A stretch of 21,352 nt of DNA from an uncultured Ruminococcus sp. (GTDB lineage: Bacteria; Bacillota; Clostridia; Oscillospirales; Ruminococcaceae). Under the pieces are notes generated by a model that ran no database searches, was not told where the DNA came from, and saw only the letters and a list, made by a program, of their open reading frames with translations. Positions 9,548-15,865 of this stretch are shown piece by piece. The stretch is from contig CAMNFW010000006.1 in NCBI GenBank assembly GCA_946537565.1, positions 1 to 21,352 on the forward strand. The letters are read 5' to 3'. The translations under genes were made by a program, and so were the position numbers. Within the stretch, counting starts at the first letter, position 1, and the number at the start of each line of letters is the position of its first letter.

Positions 9548-9567
9548 TAGTGAAGGGAGGAGAGAAA

Positions 9568-10050
9568 ATGATAAACAGTGAGCTCACCGCTGACAACGTA
9601 AAAAACGCTGTCGAAACCTACGGCAATATGATCTACCGGCTTTGCCTGATAATGCTGAAAAATACCGCCGATGCTGAGGACGTTTCTCAGGAAACATTTC
9701 TGACCTATATGCAGAAATTTCCGGGCGGTCCGCCTGAACGAGAAAAAGCCTGGCTGATGACCGTCGCCGTAAACAAATGCAGGAACCTGCTGAGATATAA
9801 CAAAAGACACCGGACTGACCCGGAAGAGCTCCTCAGCTGTTTCGTAATGCCGGAACAGGATAAAAATATTCTCCTGGCTCTGGAAATGCTTCCTGATAAA
9901 TTCCGGCTGGCAATGACCCTTCATTACATTGAAGGCTATAAAGTCGATGAAATAGCTGATATGCTTGATCTCTCAGCCTCCGCAGTTAAAATGCGTCTTT
10001 CCAAGGGCATAAAACTGCTGGAGGAAAAATACAGAAAGGAGTTTATGTAG
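9568..10050 (+). CDS. ECF-type RNA polymerase sigma factor
   Basis: A group IV (extracytoplasmic function) sigma factor of 160 aa that directs RNA polymerase to stress or envelope genes. Region 2 is seen in YRLCLIMLKNTADAEDVSQETFLTY (core binding and -10 recognition), followed by a linker. Region 4 is LPDKFRLAMTLHYIEGYKVDEIADMLDLSASAVKMRLSKG, a helix-turn-helix reading the -35. I choose the ATG at 9568, 7 nt after GGGAGG; an upstream in-frame GTG (9550) would put that site inside the coding sequence. The next gene begins one nucleotide after its stop, so sigma and partner are translationally coupled, the standard sigma/anti-sigma pair layout. Its regulon cannot be inferred here. Confidence 0.93.
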   Translation: MINSELTADNVKNAVETYGNMIYRLCLIMLKNTADAEDVSQETFLTYMQKFPGGPPEREKAWLMTVAVNKCRNLLRYNKRHRTDPEELLSCFVMPEQDKNILLALEMLPDKFRLAMTLHYIEGYKVDEIADMLDLSASAVKMRLSKGIKLLEEKYRKEFM

Positions 10051-10051
10051 T

Positions 10052-12256
10052 ATGGATATAAATGATCTGAAAAACGCTGCGGAAAATATCCGTATGCCTG
10101 AACAGCTAAAAGACCATATTCTCAGCAAGTGCAGGGATATGGAGCATATGCCGGATATTCAGGAAATAAGCCAGACCTTCAAAGTTGAACCTGCTGTCAG
10201 ACGACCATTTCTGCGGATCGCTGCCGGAATAGCTGCCTGCGGCTTGCTGGTGGGCGGAGCGGTTTATACCCGTGGTCTGATCGACCGATCAATGACTGAT
10301 CCTGATTCTGGTACTGAGGATACCTCGATCTTTAAACATGAAGAAACTCCCTGGTTTAATTTTGACGATCAGGAATATCTCTTCAGTGAAAGCTTTTCAA
10401 ATATGCAGGCACCAATAATGCTCTCTCAGGAGAAAAGAAAACAGCTTGGAGAATTCGTCCGCTCCCAGCAGCTGGAATTCGTCGGCTGTGCGAACGATGA
10501 GGGCAATGCTGATGTAGACTTTAACCGTGTGGGAAAAAACTGCTCAGGCTATGACGACTATTACTTCGTGTTTAATTCATATGGTGACAATCAAAGCCGG
10601 ACTATAGAGATCGAGCCATACGGATACCTGATCTACACTTACCACTATCCCGAAATGGTTGACCCTGAAATGATAACTGCCTATTATGCCATTGATTCTG
10701 CTGCCTTTGGTAATGCGATAAGGGATATCGTCTACGGCGGAAGAAATGAAGCTGTCACCCCCTTCGGCGACCTCAGCGACTATAACTATACCGCCGATTT
10801 TATGGGTGAACCACTGGAGCTTAACTCACCGCAGCGTGACAGTATGAATGAGCTGCTGAACAGTCTGGAATATGAACCGGAAACAAGAAGCAGTGACAAT
10901 GTCATGAATACTATTCTGAACGAGGACGGCATCACCAACAGCTTCACCTGGTCAATGGAAAACGGAAATTATCAATTCCAGCTGGATTTCTTCACCGGCG
11001 GTTATGCCAGATATATCGTGTCCTTTCCGGAAAATGACAGTAATGCGGTCACTTACAGTGAAAATTATTACAAGGTGGACTACACAGCCTTCCGAGACGG
11101 ATTCAGCCAAATCATGGGAGAAAGCTCCGAGCCAACAACAACACCGGTCAGCGATGATGTATTAAACACTCTTCTCATGAATAAGTTCGGCGATGAGCTG
11201 ACTGAGCTTTATACAGATGAGCAGTGCAATGAGGTAAGGGACTTTATCTCCTCGATCATTGACGAAAAAGAACCTTTCACTGACCCTGACCCTTCTCAGC
11301 CCAGCTACTGGATGAACGTTCCGGAAAGCAACGGTATTTACGGCAGGATAGAGCTGAGAGACTACAGCCTGACCTGTTCTCTTTCCAAAGCTGTTACCAC
11401 TGTTGACGAAGCCGGAAATAAGAATATCTCCATTGAGAGTTCAAATGCGCTGTATACCTGCAAGATGACACTGTCTGAAATGCTTGAAAATATCGACAGA
11501 ATAACCGGAAACGGCTGCTCAGAAATTGACTTTGTCCGTTTAAATAATTCACCTTTAATGAATATGAGCAGCGGTGAGGCTTATTTTGACGGTTATAAAT
11601 TCCAGCAGCCTATCAGTCTTGATAATGACAAAAAAAGCTCTCTTTCAACCTATTTCAGTAATATGACCTGGGAAACGCTGAACGTTAGCGATATAATTGA
11701 AATTGATTTCGAGGACAAAAGCCTTTCACCTGATAAGCATCTGGGATTCGGTTGGTACGATGTGAGCTATAATGAAAACGGTACCGTCTATGCTCTGCGG
11801 TTTTATGATACCGGCTATGCTGAATTTTATGTTACTGTCGGAGATGAGGCTCAGTCTCTGGGATATTTCCGTGCAGACCCGGTGACAGCTGATACGATGC
11901 TGAGAAGACTGATAGAAGTCTCAGTGAGCTATCCGCCTTTCCATACGCTGTATAAATCCGGAGCTTCCTGCAACGGTGAACAGCTGTCGGGTGATAAACT
12001 AAGAGCTGTGTCAAATGTATTCTTCGGACTTGACTTCAGTGCATATAATCTTGCTGCTTATACTCGGCAGTATGCTGATGAATATGGTGATATCACATAT
12101 TGGCTTGATAATGGAACGTGGCTCATATATGTTTATGCAGATAATACCGTTGAATGGACTGAAAACGGAACGGAATACTACAGACTTTCTCTGAATCCCG
12201 GCGGTGACAAGCTGGATATAAATAAAGAACTTGATGCGATACTTGGTGATCATTAA
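10052..12256 (+). CDS. Putative membrane-bound anti-sigma factor with a five-repeat ectodomain
   Basis: By position it is the cognate regulator of the ECF sigma factor. The 734-aa protein has a cytoplasmic N-terminus of about 52 residues (DLKNAAENIRMPEQLKDHILSKC..., a typical clostridial anti-sigma start without a zinc HxxxCxxC site). A single membrane helix lies at about 53-71. A large extracytoplasmic part of about 660 residues follows. I read that part as five degenerate units of about 100-115 aa, at about 121-230, 246-355, 380-485, 508-622 and 634-729. Each starts with a helix (for example SQEKRKQLGEFVRSQQLEF, TDEQCNEVRDFISSI, SLDNDKKSSLSTYFSNM) and then a beta strand pair ending in a GY-type turn (EPYGYLIYTY, FTGGYARYIV, YDTGYAEFYV). 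No enzyme motif is seen, so it may sense a ligand or envelope state. The repeat boundaries are my judgement. Confidence 0.8.
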   Translation: MDINDLKNAAENIRMPEQLKDHILSKCRDMEHMPDIQEISQTFKVEPAVRRPFLRIAAGIAACGLLVGGAVYTRGLIDRSMTDPDSGTEDTSIFKHEETPWFNFDDQEYLFSESFSNMQAPIMLSQEKRKQLGEFVRSQQLEFVGCANDEGNADVDFNRVGKNCSGYDDYYFVFNSYGDNQSRTIEIEPYGYLIYTYHYPEMVDPEMITAYYAIDSAAFGNAIRDIVYGGRNEAVTPFGDLSDYNYTADFMGEPLELNSPQRDSMNELLNSLEYEPETRSSDNVMNTILNEDGITNSFTWSMENGNYQFQLDFFTGGYARYIVSFPENDSNAVTYSENYYKVDYTAFRDGFSQIMGESSEPTTTPVSDDVLNTLLMNKFGDELTELYTDEQCNEVRDFISSIIDEKEPFTDPDPSQPSYWMNVPESNGIYGRIELRDYSLTCSLSKAVTTVDEAGNKNISIESSNALYTCKMTLSEMLENIDRITGNGCSEIDFVRLNNSPLMNMSSGEAYFDGYKFQQPISLDNDKKSSLSTYFSNMTWETLNVSDIIEIDFEDKSLSPDKHLGFGWYDVSYNENGTVYALRFYDTGYAEFYVTVGDEAQSLGYFRADPVTADTMLRRLIEVSVSYPPFHTLYKSGASCNGEQLSGDKLRAVSNVFFGLDFSAYNLAAYTRQYADEYGDITYWLDNGTWLIYVYADNTVEWTENGTEYYRLSLNPGGDKLDINKELDAILGDH

Positions 12257-12308: not shown

Positions 12309-12337
12309 TTGACAGGAGGGATAGAATGGTGTATAAT
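12309..12337 (+). promoter_or_regulatory. Perfect-consensus sigma-A promoter for the CNNM/CorC gene
   Basis: TTGACA (12309-12314), 17-nt spacer, TATAAT (12332-12337). Predicted +1 is at about 12344, giving a leader of about 147 nt. Confidence 0.88.
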
Positions 12338-12366
12338 ATGTGAGAAAGTGAAGGTGAGATTTCCTT

Positions 12367-12420
12367 ATGGACGGTGCCCCTGACGGCAGTCGAAGTTGTA
12401 TAAAAAAGAATAAGAACTAA
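12367..12420 (+). CDS. Candidate leader peptide (17 aa) upstream of the CNNM/CorC gene
   Basis: The ATG at 12367 has AAGGTGAG 8 nt upstream and opens a 17-codon frame encoding MDGAPDGSRSCIKKNKN. The TAA (12418-12420) overlaps the first bases of the terminator-like stem (12419-12436). This is the geometry of translation-dependent attenuation, where a ribosome at the stop would cover the 5' arm. The early Asp and Pro residues (D2, P5, D6) recall MgtL of enterobacteria, whose acidic and proline-rich start destabilises ribosomes at low magnesium; applying that here is inference. The ORF could also be chance within a structured RNA. Confidence 0.4.
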   Translation: MDGAPDGSRSCIKKNKN

Positions 12421-12464
12421 AGGCATGGCTCTTTTGAAATTGCAAAAGAGTTATGCCTTTTCGT
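12419..12464 (+). terminator. Terminator-like hairpin (attenuator) in the leader
   Basis: AAAGGCATGGCTCTTTTG (12419-12436) pairs along all 18 positions with 12443-12460 (two G-U pairs) around AAATTG. The run TTTT ending the stem forms a short U tract before CG. It lies 30 nt ahead of the start codon and downstream of the promoter, so it is probably conditional. Confidence 0.7.
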
Positions 12465-12490
12465 GGTTGTAGAATGATGGAGGATGAAAT

Positions 12491-13810
12491 ATGATAGAGC
12501 AGTTATTACTGCAAATTGTTTTGTTAGCGGTATGCGCTTTTATTACCGCCGCTGAGACCGCAATGACCGCTGTAAGTGATTCTAAACTGGAAAAATTGGC
12601 GGCAAGCGGCAGTTCAAGAGCCTTAAGATTAAAAAAACTTCTTGAAAGTCCATTGACTTTCACTCAGTCAATGCACACCGTTAAGGTGCTTATGATGGTC
12701 GCCGGTGCAGCCTTTGCAGCAAAGGATTTTTCAGGGCCGCTTTCAGCTTTTATGCAGAAAGAAAAATTATCTGCCAGTGTAAGTAATATACTCGCTGTGG
12801 TGATCATAATTCTGGCTGAATCTTTCCTGATGCTGGTACTGGGTGAGATCGTTCCGAAGCGGAGAGCTGGACGTGATCCAGAAAAGCCTGCTCTTCGCTA
12901 CATCAGACTGATAAGTATAATAAAGCTCATTTTTACACCGTTTTCAGCGTTAATAAAACTCACTGCCTCCGGTATCCTCCTGCTAATGGGTATCGACCCC
13001 AAAAAAGAAGAGGCTGCCGTAACTGAAGAGGAAATACTTATGATGTCCGATGCAGGAGCCGAAAATGGTACTATTGATGAAGATGAAAACCGTATAATTA
13101 AAAATGTCTTTGCTTTCGACGATATGACCGCTGAACAGCTCTGTACCCACCGCACTGATGTGTCTGTGCTCTGGCTAAGTGACAGCGTGGAGGTATGGGA
13201 GGAAACTATCCACCGTACCCGTCACTCGGTTTTCCCGATATGCGGCGATAATGTTGACAACGTTGTGGGTGTTCTGAATGCAAAGGATTATTTCAGACTG
13301 GACGATAAAAGCTATGAAAATATCATGGAAAACGCCGTGAAAGAGCCTTACTTCGTCCATGAGAATATGAAGGCTGACAGACTGTTCGCTCAGATGAAAA
13401 AGAACGGCTCAGACCATTTCGCTGTTGTAGTTGATGAATACGGCGGAATGACCGGAATCATAACCGTTACTGATCTGGTTGAACAGCTTGTTGGTGAATT
13501 TGATGACGATGAACTGGACGAACCAGAAGTAACTTTTGAAAAAACCGGTGAGGATACCTGGAGAGTCCCCGGTCAGACTCCTCTCAACCAGGTTTGTGAG
13601 GAGCTTGAAATATCCCTTCCTGCCGATAAATTCGACACCTTCGGCGGCTATGTCATCGGTCAGCTGGGTGAGATACCAAAAGACGGTGCTAAAACTGCCC
13701 TTGAAAGTGACGGACTGAAAATTGAGATACTGGAAATCCTCCACCACCGTGCTGAGCTTTGCCGTGTCACTAAGCTGAAAGCTGAAACTGAACCCGGAAG
13801 TGAAGTGTAA
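12491..13810 (+). CDS. CNNM/CorC (HlyC) family transporter with CBS pair
   Basis: A membrane protein of the DUF21-CBS-CorC_HlyC family (439 aa). Characterised members export or regulate Mg2+, sometimes Co2+; the older label haemolysin is misleading. The N-terminal DUF21 domain (about 1-180) has hydrophobic segments near 5-28, 58-77, 92-115 and 137-168, with the family motifs AETAMTAV and LGEIVPK. The linker is acidic. A CBS pair (about 200-325; HRTDVSVLWLSDS..., VVVDEYGGMTGIITVTDLVEQLVGE) binds adenine nucleotide. The C-terminal CorC_HlyC domain (about 345-430) starts at WRVPGQTPLNQVCEEL. Start ATG follows GGAGGATGAAAT. The gene has its own promoter and attenuator-like leader and ends before a terminator shared with the convergent operon. 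Confidence 0.93.
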   Translation: MIEQLLLQIVLLAVCAFITAAETAMTAVSDSKLEKLAASGSSRALRLKKLLESPLTFTQSMHTVKVLMMVAGAAFAAKDFSGPLSAFMQKEKLSASVSNILAVVIIILAESFLMLVLGEIVPKRRAGRDPEKPALRYIRLISIIKLIFTPFSALIKLTASGILLLMGIDPKKEEAAVTEEEILMMSDAGAENGTIDEDENRIIKNVFAFDDMTAEQLCTHRTDVSVLWLSDSVEVWEETIHRTRHSVFPICGDNVDNVVGVLNAKDYFRLDDKSYENIMENAVKEPYFVHENMKADRLFAQMKKNGSDHFAVVVDEYGGMTGIITVTDLVEQLVGEFDDDELDEPEVTFEKTGEDTWRVPGQTPLNQVCEELEISLPADKFDTFGGYVIGQLGEIPKDGAKTALESDGLKIEILEILHHRAELCRVTKLKAETEPGSEV

Positions 13811-13911: not shown

Positions 13912-13958
13912 AGCCATAGTGTCTCTTCTATGTTCAGAAACACTATGGCTCATTTTTT
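13912..13958. terminator. Bidirectional terminator
   Basis: AGCCATAGTGT (13912-13922) and ACACTATGGCT (13940-13950) form an 11-bp stem followed on the plus strand by CATTTTTTA. It lies between the CNNM gene and the convergent operon and likely serves both; on the minus strand the run after the stem (TTTTGTTTATATTT) is T-rich. A second inverted repeat, TTTTTCGCC/GGCGAAAAA with a long loop, lies just before it (13820-13864). Confidence 0.82.
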
Positions 13959-13963
13959 ATACA

Positions 13964-15865
13964 TCAAAGGGTGCTGGCAGATATTATCCTCATTGACTTT
14001 ATCTGATAACCGGAGTTTGTCTCAACTATACCGTACTCCACAGTTTTTGCAACTGAGCTGTCTATCCATGAGGGCACTTCGTTGATATAATCAACAGTAA
14101 CAATATAGTCAGTGCCATTCTTGGAAACAGACTTTACGTCCGGCTGATAGGTAAAGGTTATGGGCTTTACAGGAACGTTATAAGCCTTTGTCTCTGAGTT
14201 GTAATAGAAATGTGCAGTACCGGCAGGACCAGTAGTTGTATGGTTGAATTCAGGCAGATCGTCACCGAACAGCTTAACAGCATACTTTTCAACAACTGTG
14301 TCCGGAATAGTAACTGTGTCAAAGGTTATCTCAAGATTTTCACGTCTTATGGCATCGCTGTCCATAACGATCGACCAGATAGCTGCGGTTATGATCTGAT
14401 CAGAGGGCAGCTCAGACGGCGACTCAAAGGATTCTATATCCATAATTACCGCTGGGTATACAACTTCTGTGAAGCCGTCCTTTTTGGTATCACCAGAAGA
14501 AAATCTGTTAAAGTAGTCGATCCCCCTGAAAATAACAGTAATAAGACCAATGCAGGCAAGTATTGAGAAAACAACACCCAGCAGTGTCAGCAGAACCTTT
14601 TTGACAGCACCGGCTTTTCTTGGCTGATCGTCAGAAGCCTCAGCTTTTTCACTGCGCTCACTCATGATCTCTTCCGGCTCTTCATCAAGAATATTTTCAA
14701 GTGCCTTTATTACACCGCCTTTTTTTCTGGCAGGAGTTTCAGCTTCTTCTTCAGCAGATTCATCTTCCTCTGATTCGGGGGCAGCATCGGAATTATCCTC
14801 ATTTTCTTCACTGACCGCAGGCTCTTCATTTTCATGATCAGAAGATTCATCATCACTGCCGGAGTTTTCTATATCTGAAATAGCCTTTTCCGCATCACTC
14901 TGGAGGCTTTCGATAAGCTTCTGAGCAGGGTCTTCATCATCAGCATTATTATTGTCATCGGGCTCTTCATTTTCCTTTGAGATCTCCAGAGCCTTGCTGA
15001 GCAGCGCATCTATATCATCGCTTTCATCCTCAGCAGTAGCATCAGCAGGATTTTCTGCAAACCCAAATATATCCTCCTGAACCTCTTCAACAGGCTCTTC
15101 TGAAACAGATATTATCTCTTCTTCGATCTTCAATACAGGTGAGATCTCTGTATCATCAGAATCTGACTCTGAAATTGCCGGCTCATCTGATATTTCAGAC
15201 GCTTCCGGAATTTCAGGCGCAAACGATGAATTCTCATCGGCAGACTCTGTTTCAGGAGTTGCTGCTGGTTTATTCCTGTCCTTTTTACGAGATTTTTTCT
15301 TTGACTTTTTCTTAGCAGCTTTAGCTTCTTCCTCAGCCTTTTTCTTAGCAGCTTCTGCGGCGGCTTTGGCTTCTTCCTCAGCCTTTTTCTTAACAGCTTC
15401 TGCGGCGGCTTTGGCTTCTTCCTCAGCCTTTTTCTTTGCAGCTTCTGCGGCGGCTTTAGCTTCTTCCTCAGCCTTCTTCTTAGCAGCTTCTGCGGCGGCT
15501 TTGGCTTCTTCCTCAGCCTTTTTCTTTGCAGCTTCTGCAGCGGCTTTAGCTTCTTCCTCTGCCTTTTTCTTAGCAGCTTCTGCGGCGGCTTTGGCTTCTT
15601 CCTCTGCCTTTTTCTTCTTTTCTATTATCTTCTGAATATGCAGATCACCGCTGAATTCCTGAGATACAGCATCAGCCAGTTCATTGGCAGAGACATCTGT
15701 CTTTTTCTTTTCACTGGTCAGAGAATTGAGCAGATCCTCAACTGACATATCATCTATCTTGCTTCTGGATGCAGATTTTTTTGCCGGTGCGGCAGGCTTT
15801 TTGTCAGGCTGGTCATCTCCCATAAGGTTGTTGAGAATATCATCTATATCCTGTCTGGTTGCCAT
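13964..15865 (-). CDS. Single-pass membrane protein with a Lys/Ala/Glu repeat helix and acidic linker
   Basis: I do not recognise a named family. The 633-aa protein has these parts: an N-terminal region with two short motifs, DIDDILNNL (6-14) and VEDLLNSL (42-49); a highly charged array at 84-185 made of a 15-residue unit KKKAEEEAKAAAEAA (six copies plus a partial), likely a long single alpha helix as in TolA; a basic patch (186-199); an acidic, disordered stretch of about 200 residues; one membrane helix at about 421-446; and a C-terminal domain of about 180 residues, probably extracytoplasmic because positive residues (RKAGAVKK) precede the helix. Thus a long cytoplasmic arm is tied to an outside domain. 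Start ATG has AAAAGGAG 6 nt upstream. It is the last gene of the proBA-containing operon. Scaffold or envelope linkage is a guess. Confidence 0.88.
   Translation of the reverse strand: MATRQDIDDILNNLMGDDQPDKKPAAPAKKSASRSKIDDMSVEDLLNSLTSEKKKTDVSANELADAVSQEFSGDLHIQKIIEKKKKAEEEAKAAAEAAKKKAEEEAKAAAEAAKKKAEEEAKAAAEAAKKKAEEEAKAAAEAAKKKAEEEAKAAAEAVKKKAEEEAKAAAEAAKKKAEEEAKAAKKKSKKKSRKKDRNKPAATPETESADENSSFAPEIPEASEISDEPAISESDSDDTEISPVLKIEEEIISVSEEPVEEVQEDIFGFAENPADATAEDESDDIDALLSKALEISKENEEPDDNNNADDEDPAQKLIESLQSDAEKAISDIENSGSDDESSDHENEEPAVSEENEDNSDAAPESEEDESAEEEAETPARKKGGVIKALENILDEEPEEIMSERSEKAEASDDQPRKAGAVKKVLLTLLGVVFSILACIGLITVIFRGIDYFNRFSSGDTKKDGFTEVVYPAVIMDIESFESPSELPSDQIITAAIWSIVMDSDAIRRENLEITFDTVTIPDTVVEKYAVKLFGDDLPEFNHTTTGPAGTAHFYYNSETKAYNVPVKPITFTYQPDVKSVSKNGTDYIVTVDYINEVPSWIDSSVAKTVEYGIVETNSGYQIKSMRIISASTL
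15311..15616 (-). repeat. In-frame 45-bp tandem repeat array (six copies plus a partial)
   Basis: The array encodes the Lys/Ala/Glu helix. Six full 45-bp units and one partial are nearly identical. Silent differences alternate between units: read on the plus strand, TAGCAG with CTTTGGC, and TTGCAG with CTTTAGC. This implies that some growth occurred by copying a 90-bp pair of units. Such arrays expand and contract by slippage or unequal recombination. Confidence 0.95.

Follow-up and report, generated by a model that had tools for sequence, protein, structure and literature searches.

A conserved acidic leader upstream of a CNNM/CorC gene in Ruminococcus and its proposed role in gating a predicted Mg2+ exporter

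The locus and its leader region

The window, by which we mean the whole stretch of 21,352 nucleotides analysed here, comes from an uncultured Ruminococcus sp. and holds a CNNM/CorC gene preceded by a promoter, a short open reading frame and a stem-loop. The features of this region are as follows.

12309..12337, plus strand: sigma-70-type promoter TTGACA-17-TATAAT, with 12/12 consensus matches
12351..12358, plus strand: Shine-Dalgarno-like AAGGTGAG of the leader ORF, read from the sequence
12367..12420, plus strand: leader ORF MDGAPDGSRSCIKKNKN, 17 codons, stop TAA at 12418-12420, from the sequence and its conservation in the genus
12367..12390, plus strand: N-terminal motif M-D/E-x-x-x-D-G-S/C (MDGAPDGS in the window), the proposed ribosome-destabilising sensor, from codon columns
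12375..12388, plus strand: small hairpin P1 within codons 3-8, with pairs T12375-A12388, G12376-C12387, C12377-G12386 and C12378-G12385
12419..12460, plus strand: 18-pair stem-loop, arms 12419-12436 and 12443-12460, loop 12437-12442, -25.1 kcal/mol
12458..12461, plus strand: short T run, TTTTCG, at the stem base, read from the sequence; borderline as a terminator
12479..12483, plus strand: GGAGG Shine-Dalgarno of the CNNM gene, read from the sequence
12491..13810, plus strand: CNNM/CorC protein of 439 aa, predicted Mg2+ exporter, with Pfam CNNM, CBS and CorC_HlyC

A preliminary description of this DNA had named a perfect promoter, the Shine-Dalgarno-like sequence, the 17-codon ORF, the 18-bp stem and a stop codon at the base of that stem, and each of these is indeed present: the TAA of the leader overlaps the 5' arm of the stem. 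The leader RNA folds with a z of -4.0, a value that none of 200 shuffles reached. That the stem is terminator-like, as had been said, holds in one respect and fails in another. A standard scan reports no terminator in the window, since only TTTTCG follows the stem, whereas a looser custom scan accepts it, so that its status as a terminator is borderline. The description had further proposed that a GTGCC segment pairs either in a hairpin of its own or with GGCAT of the stem. The first of these structures, the small hairpin at 12375-12388, can form; the second is possible on paper and found no support, and the proposed switch was rejected: the GTACC leaders L004, L008 and L010 keep GGCATGG, and leaders of the family such as MDDGDS are devoid of GTGCC.

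The encoded protein matches the solved structures 7m1u, 4hg0 (CorC) and 7cff. We predict that it is a Mg2+ exporter, the direction of transport being drawn from Staphylococcus aureus MpfA; loss of MpfA raises internal Mg2+, according to an excerpt of a study whose authors leave open whether MpfA exports the ion or regulates its export (PMC6711546). Other features surround the locus. A sigma-70 family (ECF-like) gene, then a gene for a 734-aa protein with no Pfam match, occupy 9550-12256 directly upstream of the leader, and are perhaps a sigma factor and its partner. Downstream, between convergent genes, a hairpin followed by a T run is visible by eye at 13915-13960; it resembles an ordinary gene-end terminator, with a T run longer than that at the leader stem, and is missing from the standard terminator scan, whose loops are 3-8. 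The minus strand at 13964-15865 encodes a protein containing a long repeated KKKAEEEAKAAAEAA stretch.

Conservation of the leader within the genus

How widely is the leader shared? CNNM loci of the genus were fetched as sets of 30, 47 (mostly Ruminococcus) and 19, and the resulting 96 were reduced to 73 distinct loci by removing 20 duplicates and L086, an outlier, together with L074 and L298, which repeat L028 and L072 with a second start call. A leader ORF with a Shine-Dalgarno stands upstream of the CNNM/CorC gene in 64 of the 73, eight loci are leaderless, and the leader of L305 is deviant; the association is not due to chance. A wider leader rule returned 67/74 in the genus (L298 still counted, and L061 a false positive) against the 64 recognised by motif, with L161 probably a false positive in the family, and an earlier strict sORF rule had overlooked leaders having distant Shine-Dalgarno sequences. 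Promoters with at least 10/12 consensus matches precede 49 of the 63 genus leaders with enough upstream sequence (2.3% in shuffles). By eye, L012 (with its copy L083) and L009 show a consensus-like promoter and a Shine-Dalgarno with neither leader nor stem, and would be helpful for comparison as natural deletions. The CNNM gene of L301 (G652) contains an in-frame TAA, possibly because it is a pseudogene or through an assembly error.

A 24-base leader pattern, searched with up to one mismatch in 60 genomes of the genus, proved largely specific when matched exactly: 32/34 exact matches lie just upstream of CNNM genes, with G016:C18 an exact match that is not before a CNNM gene and G646:C299 a copy at a contig end. 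At one mismatch, 7/22 matches are also CNNM leaders, and the backward pattern gave seven matches. Outside the genus, a sample of 398 genomes of the phylum yielded four matches, two of which (G304, G290) fall within long open frames and two of which (G144, G159) have no CNNM gene downstream in the stretch read.

Within the leaders it is the N-terminus, M-[D/E]-x-x-x-D-G-[S/C], that is conserved, and the C-terminal half is loose. Positions D/E2, D6, G7 and S/C8 are nearly invariant, residue 6 being D and residue 7 being G in 53/54 rows each of a codon alignment that includes one false hit, L009; proline occupies residue 5 in 33/54 rows, and the residues at codons 3-5 vary freely. Nucleotide changes at D6 were synonymous in six cases and not in two, and at G7 in ten and three, in counts that ignore kinship and include one row out of register owing to an inserted codon. 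The preliminary description had looked to synonymous substitutions in a conserved frame as a sign of coding, and this is mostly what D6 and G7 display. Conceivably, the ORF might instead be incidental to a metabolite- or ion-binding RNA, i.e., a riboswitch, with MDGAPDGS conserved as RNA. Such a reading would account for the third bases of codons 3 and 4, which are largely kept though the residues vary, and for the small hairpin over codons 3-8, which is complete in one of two registers in 49/64 genus leaders. We nevertheless judge it quite improbable. The changes at D6 and G7 speak for the peptide, a like motif occurs on CNNM proteins themselves, and leaders of the wider family have acidic N-termini in common but not the RNA of the genus. 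Moreover, Rfam detects no relevant family: the window has no match at gathering score to the M-box or any other known RNA, 15 genus loci given to Rfam, out of a set of 30, match no family, and 20 loci of the family return only tRNAs and one distant cobalamin riboswitch; weaker matches to RNA families were rejected as being at chance level. In a translated leader, the small hairpin may slow the ribosome over the destabilising codons.

The stem downstream of this start is a real RNA element in the genus. In an alignment of 38 sequences, 93.3% of cells pair, as compared with 32-52% in slid versions; 9/16 stem pairs have changed on both sides, and the covariation score was reached by none of 500 shuffles. 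The placement of the stop codon relative to the stem is likewise maintained. Among the 64 genus leaders, the stop lies in the 3' arm in 35, in the loop in one, touching the 5' arm in one (the window) and within 15 nt before the stem in four, so that 41/64 terminate within the stem or at most 15 nt upstream of it; two more stop after the stem, and in eight the stop overlaps or abuts the CNNM start. Thirteen of the 64 do not have this stem, besides some of the eight whose stop meets the CNNM start. Consistent with the earlier expectation, stop-to-stem placement is thus kept in most leaders having a stem. The description had also specified what would speak against it, namely frameshifts or loss of the stem in relatives, and both signs are present in part, as the 13 leaders without the stem show on one side and a shifted frame shows on the other: the stem begins in the same frame in 34/39 leaders and out of frame in 5/39. 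Four of these five have a stop that falls inside the stem, directly behind it or a little ahead of it; the stop of the fifth borders on the CNNM start. A functional small protein, which we had considered as the product of the ORF, is unlikely given that these five leaders read the C-terminal half in a different frame and yet keep the stop at those places.

What would such a stem do? U-runs are not enriched after the stems of the genus (3/64, versus 3.1% of shuffles). Downstream of codon 8 and ahead of the stem, many genus leaders have a segment that is complementary to the CNNM Shine-Dalgarno and the bases 5' of it; in L019, for example, CUUCGUUAAAU pairs with AUUUAACGGAG. This segment changes together with the context of the Shine-Dalgarno in L008, L014, L016 and L023. 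Across 56 leaders, the mean energy of the duplex is -11.64 kcal/mol for native combinations and -10.00 kcal/mol for permuted ones, with 0/5000 permutations reaching the native value; among 32 dissimilar leaders, 1/10000 permutations did so. A leader's own Shine-Dalgarno ranks in the best quarter for 29/56 and, taken singly, 23/49 leaders beat 95% of their own shuffles and 26/49 do not. In the window leader no anti-Shine-Dalgarno was detected (-4.3 kcal/mol), and we rejected it as a device of the window itself. For the genus, masking of the Shine-Dalgarno is the more likely output, rather than a U-rich terminator.

Acidic starts on leaders and exporters across the family

Beyond the genus, 197 genomes of the family were searched, 99 of which have a CNNM relative at E 1e-60. 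The 111 rows obtained gave 105 CNNM genes with readable starts, after leaving out the genus rows L001, L028 and L087, the partial G500, G464 (stops) and L107, whose start lies outside the match. A leader was defined as an ORF that has a Shine-Dalgarno and whose residues 2-7 include two or more acidic ones and neither K nor R; by this rule 36/105 genes were preceded by one, compared with 1/105 in a reverse-strand control. Leader starts among them include MDDGDSNAP, MEDSDNN, MDEDGSYD, MADPDPDRTNTPGP and MDADPWPD, and also MADPDPD; that of L088 begins MSDDADCSTD, close to the start of Escherichia coli CorC, MSDDNSHSSD. A pattern search for MDDGDS returned five sites, all of them CNNM leaders. A terminator-like stem accompanies 20/37 leaders of the family or order (2.2% in shuffles); 13 of these 20 ORFs stop within the stem or at most 15 nt before it, six read through, and one ends 35 nt before.

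Many CNNM proteins of the family carry a comparable start on the exporter itself, beginning MDPDGS, MDPDS, MPDPDG or MEPDGS. A motif of the DPD/PDG type is found in 38/105 family CNNM proteins and in 0/260 control ORFs of the fetched loci, and a broad rule (at least two acidic residues without a basic one, or an acid beside proline, within residues 2-7) selects 58/105 CNNM proteins and 30/260 controls. Conversely, 194 family genomes contained 29 distinct sites (30 rows) at which a Shine-Dalgarno precedes MDPD[G/S/R], and the backward control gave none. Of these 29 sites, 25 belong to CorC/CNNM genes or to the leader of such a gene, a count that includes L347, L326 and divergent genes recognised by CBS/CorC_HlyC alone. 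The remaining four, located inside open reading frames 73-226 codons long, are unlikely to be starts; L326 and L354, too, have long open frames upstream, of 209 and 108 codons. L326 (G618) is by eye a frameshifted CorC gene, with no Pfam match in the scanned frame, and here as well a pseudogene or an assembly error is possible. Several divergent CorC-family proteins start with MDPDG/S (L347, L330, L331, L338-L341, L354), some of them having no recognisable CNNM domain, and may be regulators or cytosolic CorC-type proteins. L347 (G498:C160), which starts MDPDG, has CBS and CorC_HlyC domains; Pfam recognises no membrane domain in it, and its residues 1-120 contain no hydrophobic stretch.

Acidic N-tails are compatible with the outside N-terminus of CNNM proteins. 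One might hence envision structural coupling devoid of regulation, whereby translation of the leader keeps the RNA open and the acidic N-termini of CNNM proteins are membrane-topology signals. We consider this very unlikely, because a like acidity is found on leaders and on L347, and because none of the 72 control ORFs in which a hydrophobic stretch comes early has the DPD/PDG motif and two satisfy the broad rule, as against 38 and 58 of the 105 CNNM proteins.

Leader and own-N-terminus types occur together in only 6/105 family CNNM genes. Their mutual exclusion has a Fisher p of 8e-9 with kinship ignored, and is not independent of kinship, because the two types fall mainly in two clades. In a tree of 117 CNNM proteins (with the labels of L110, L114, L144 and L305 set by eye, and L061 wrongly labelled as a leader), the own-motif label changes eight times, at least seven of these changes being forced by well-supported branches, and the leader types L137, L144 and L145/L172 fall within groups of relatives that carry the motif themselves. 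The case of L137 (G511) is instructive: its leader, MDPDSIPPG..., ends directly at the CNNM start, its sisters L139 and L143 carry MDPDS on the exporter, and the leader looks like the N-terminus of an exporter that has been split off into a separate ORF. Among 30 CNNM genes sampled across the phylum we found two leaders (one in the reverse-strand control) and six own-motif genes. With so few cases, the system looks concentrated in the family.

A proposed ribosome-survival sensor

How might the leader act on the downstream gene? We lean towards a scenario whereby the leader peptide gates a predicted Mg2+ exporter through ribosome survival of its N-terminus. The conserved start, the stem, the anti-Shine-Dalgarno pairing, the placement of stops and the near-exclusion of the two types support such gating at the level of comparative sequence. 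The motif M-D/E-x-x-x-D-G-S/C, like its relatives MDDGDS, MEDSDN and MADPDPD, would form a destabilising acidic, often proline-containing nascent chain (IRD). We infer that the leader is translated, that ribosomes can drop off it and that Mg2+ is the signal. At low Mg2+, ribosomes would be lost within a few codons, the RNA beyond them would fold, and the exporter would be off. The form of the blocking fold would differ among leaders. Roughly half of those in the family would use a terminator-like stem, and many Ruminococcus an extended hairpin joining the leader ORF by base pairing to the Shine-Dalgarno of the exporter; in the window, it would be the 18-pair stem with its short T run. At high Mg2+, ribosomes would reach a stop codon in or next to the stem, or at the start codon of the exporter, and so either open the block or couple translation, whereupon the exporter would be made and Mg2+ exported. 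In leaderless exporters with an MDPDGS of their own, low Mg2+ would abort synthesis of the exporter itself. The predicted polarity, off at low and on at high Mg2+, follows because in all types ribosomes have to clear the acidic N-terminus and complete the reading frame before the exporter can be made.

The closest precedents are the enteric leader peptides mgtL and mgtQ, which sense Mg2+ and switch importers on, as far as the excerpts of the respective studies go (PMC11282234, PMC8092293). Early acidic and proline residues cause ribosome drop-off, which in mgtL is favoured by low Mg2+. The leader of mgtA in E. coli and Salmonella resembles ours in being a short ORF with early acidic/proline codons (EPDP) ahead of a Mg2+ transport gene, where drop-off at low Mg2+ changes RNA folding (excerpt of PMC11282234), and our leader indeed combines a Shine-Dalgarno-bearing short ORF, early acidic/proline codons and a Mg2+ transport gene. 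It differs in that abortion of mgtL turns an importer on and termination there is Rho-dependent, whereas here completion would turn an exporter on by way of a terminator-like stem, Shine-Dalgarno masking or start-stop overlap. The original proposal of an mgtL-like leader before CNNM/CorC therefore survives with respect to the anatomy, as the N-terminus is conserved, acidic and often proline-containing and the stop lies at the stem, and is reversed with respect to the predicted output. The strength of the sensor must also be considered. MDGAPDGS of the window is mild in comparison with tested IRD sequences, and in an excerpt of PMC11282234 nothing less than a DPEE motif sufficed for clear dependence on EttA, which counts against MDGAPDGS as an IRD.

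Alternatively, abortion or pausing at the early acidic codons might free the gene, as in mgtQ and mgtL, with induction at low Mg2+ or by another signal. The leader mgtQ of Salmonella mgtCBRU offers parallels that fit this logic, with acidic codons 2 and 5, a hairpin over its first codons and a masked Shine-Dalgarno of a Mg2+ transporter gene, and abortion at its acidic codons raises translation of mgtB (excerpt of PMC8092293); the small hairpin of the genus leaders is comparable. Yet mgtQ serves an importer, its abortion promotes translation, and it is intergenic and enteric. A stop codon in the 3' arm of the stem (35/64) or at the CNNM start (8) makes completion a more natural opening event than abortion, and CNNM genes with an MDPDGS N-terminus of their own can only be lowered by abortion. 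By eye, moreover, the anti-Shine-Dalgarno segments, for which an alternative pairing with the first hairpin might be imagined, track the Shine-Dalgarno (L008, L016) while GACGG stays constant. We thus favour completion as the on state, an inference from the stop in the stem, the start-stop overlap and the own-N-terminus types, i.e., from architecture alone, and regard release by abortion as a poor prospect.

A leader ORF with a terminator-like stem is also the hallmark of the trp and his attenuators. Those contain a run of regulatory codons, and completion leads to termination there, according to an excerpt of PMC9413887, as opposed to the on state proposed here. It is conceivable that the leader is a general attenuator of translation stress or amino-acid supply, responding to slow decoding of Asp, Gly, Ser and Pro or to ribosome inhibitors and not specific to Mg2+, since judging from the anatomy any early stall would also keep the stem or the anti-Shine-Dalgarno folded. 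This seems improbable to us, the leader having none of the repeated codons typical of amino-acid attenuators and its motif being acidic and tied to CorC/CNNM genes.

The enteric CorC proteins are a further point of comparison. In an excerpt of PMC12421838, which cites Chadani et al., an IRD sequence is placed in the CorC N-terminus, and high Mg2+ induces corC and, at neutral or alkaline pH, mgpA by a regulatory mechanism that is called unclear there. CorC (YbeX) of E. coli and Salmonella shares with the proteins described here an acidic N-terminus on a CorC-family gene, destabilising in CorC and predicted to be so here, which is proposed in the same excerpt to raise expression at high Mg2+; unlike the Ruminococcus family, with its MDPDGS-like N-termini or leaders, it has no leader and belongs to another phylum. 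The leader ORF YoaL of yoaE/mgpA overlaps the start of a CorC-domain gene, as is seen in the sequence, and removal of its start codon lowers translation of the downstream gene (excerpt of PMC12421838). Its start, MDRHRRHFS, is however not acidic, and the transporter is of the TerC type. A full-text search of the open-licence PMC literature gave, among the matches listed, no title or beginning of an abstract that describes the leader or the MDPDGS signature, and the excerpts of PMC13009471 and PMC12992588 hold nothing on Mg2+ leaders.

The preliminary reading as a whole is partly supported, and the motif reaches beyond leaders, to the exporters of many relatives. We envision, as a broader proposition that we find as credible as it is doubtful, that Mg2+ export in the Ruminococcus family is set by a portable sensor, a ribosome-destabilising N-terminus that can be part of the exporter (MDPDGS), of a coupled leader, or of a leader that opens a terminator or a masked Shine-Dalgarno. 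Such a sensor would be movable in evolution, as is suggested by the L137 leader, whose initial MDPDS also begins its sister exporters; with an output opposite to that of mgtL, the sensor would represent the exporter counterpart, in another phylum, of the enteric importer leaders. If true, this would account for the regulation of CNNM/CorC exporters in the absence of any known riboswitch, would turn the proposal made for enteric CorC (PMC12421838) into a wider, testable rule, and would make MDPDGS a sequence signature for genes under ribosome drop-off control. A family of gut Clostridia appears to use an enteric-type sensor, the stability of ribosomes over an acidic start, with the opposite output of turning exporters on, placed on the leader or on the exporter.
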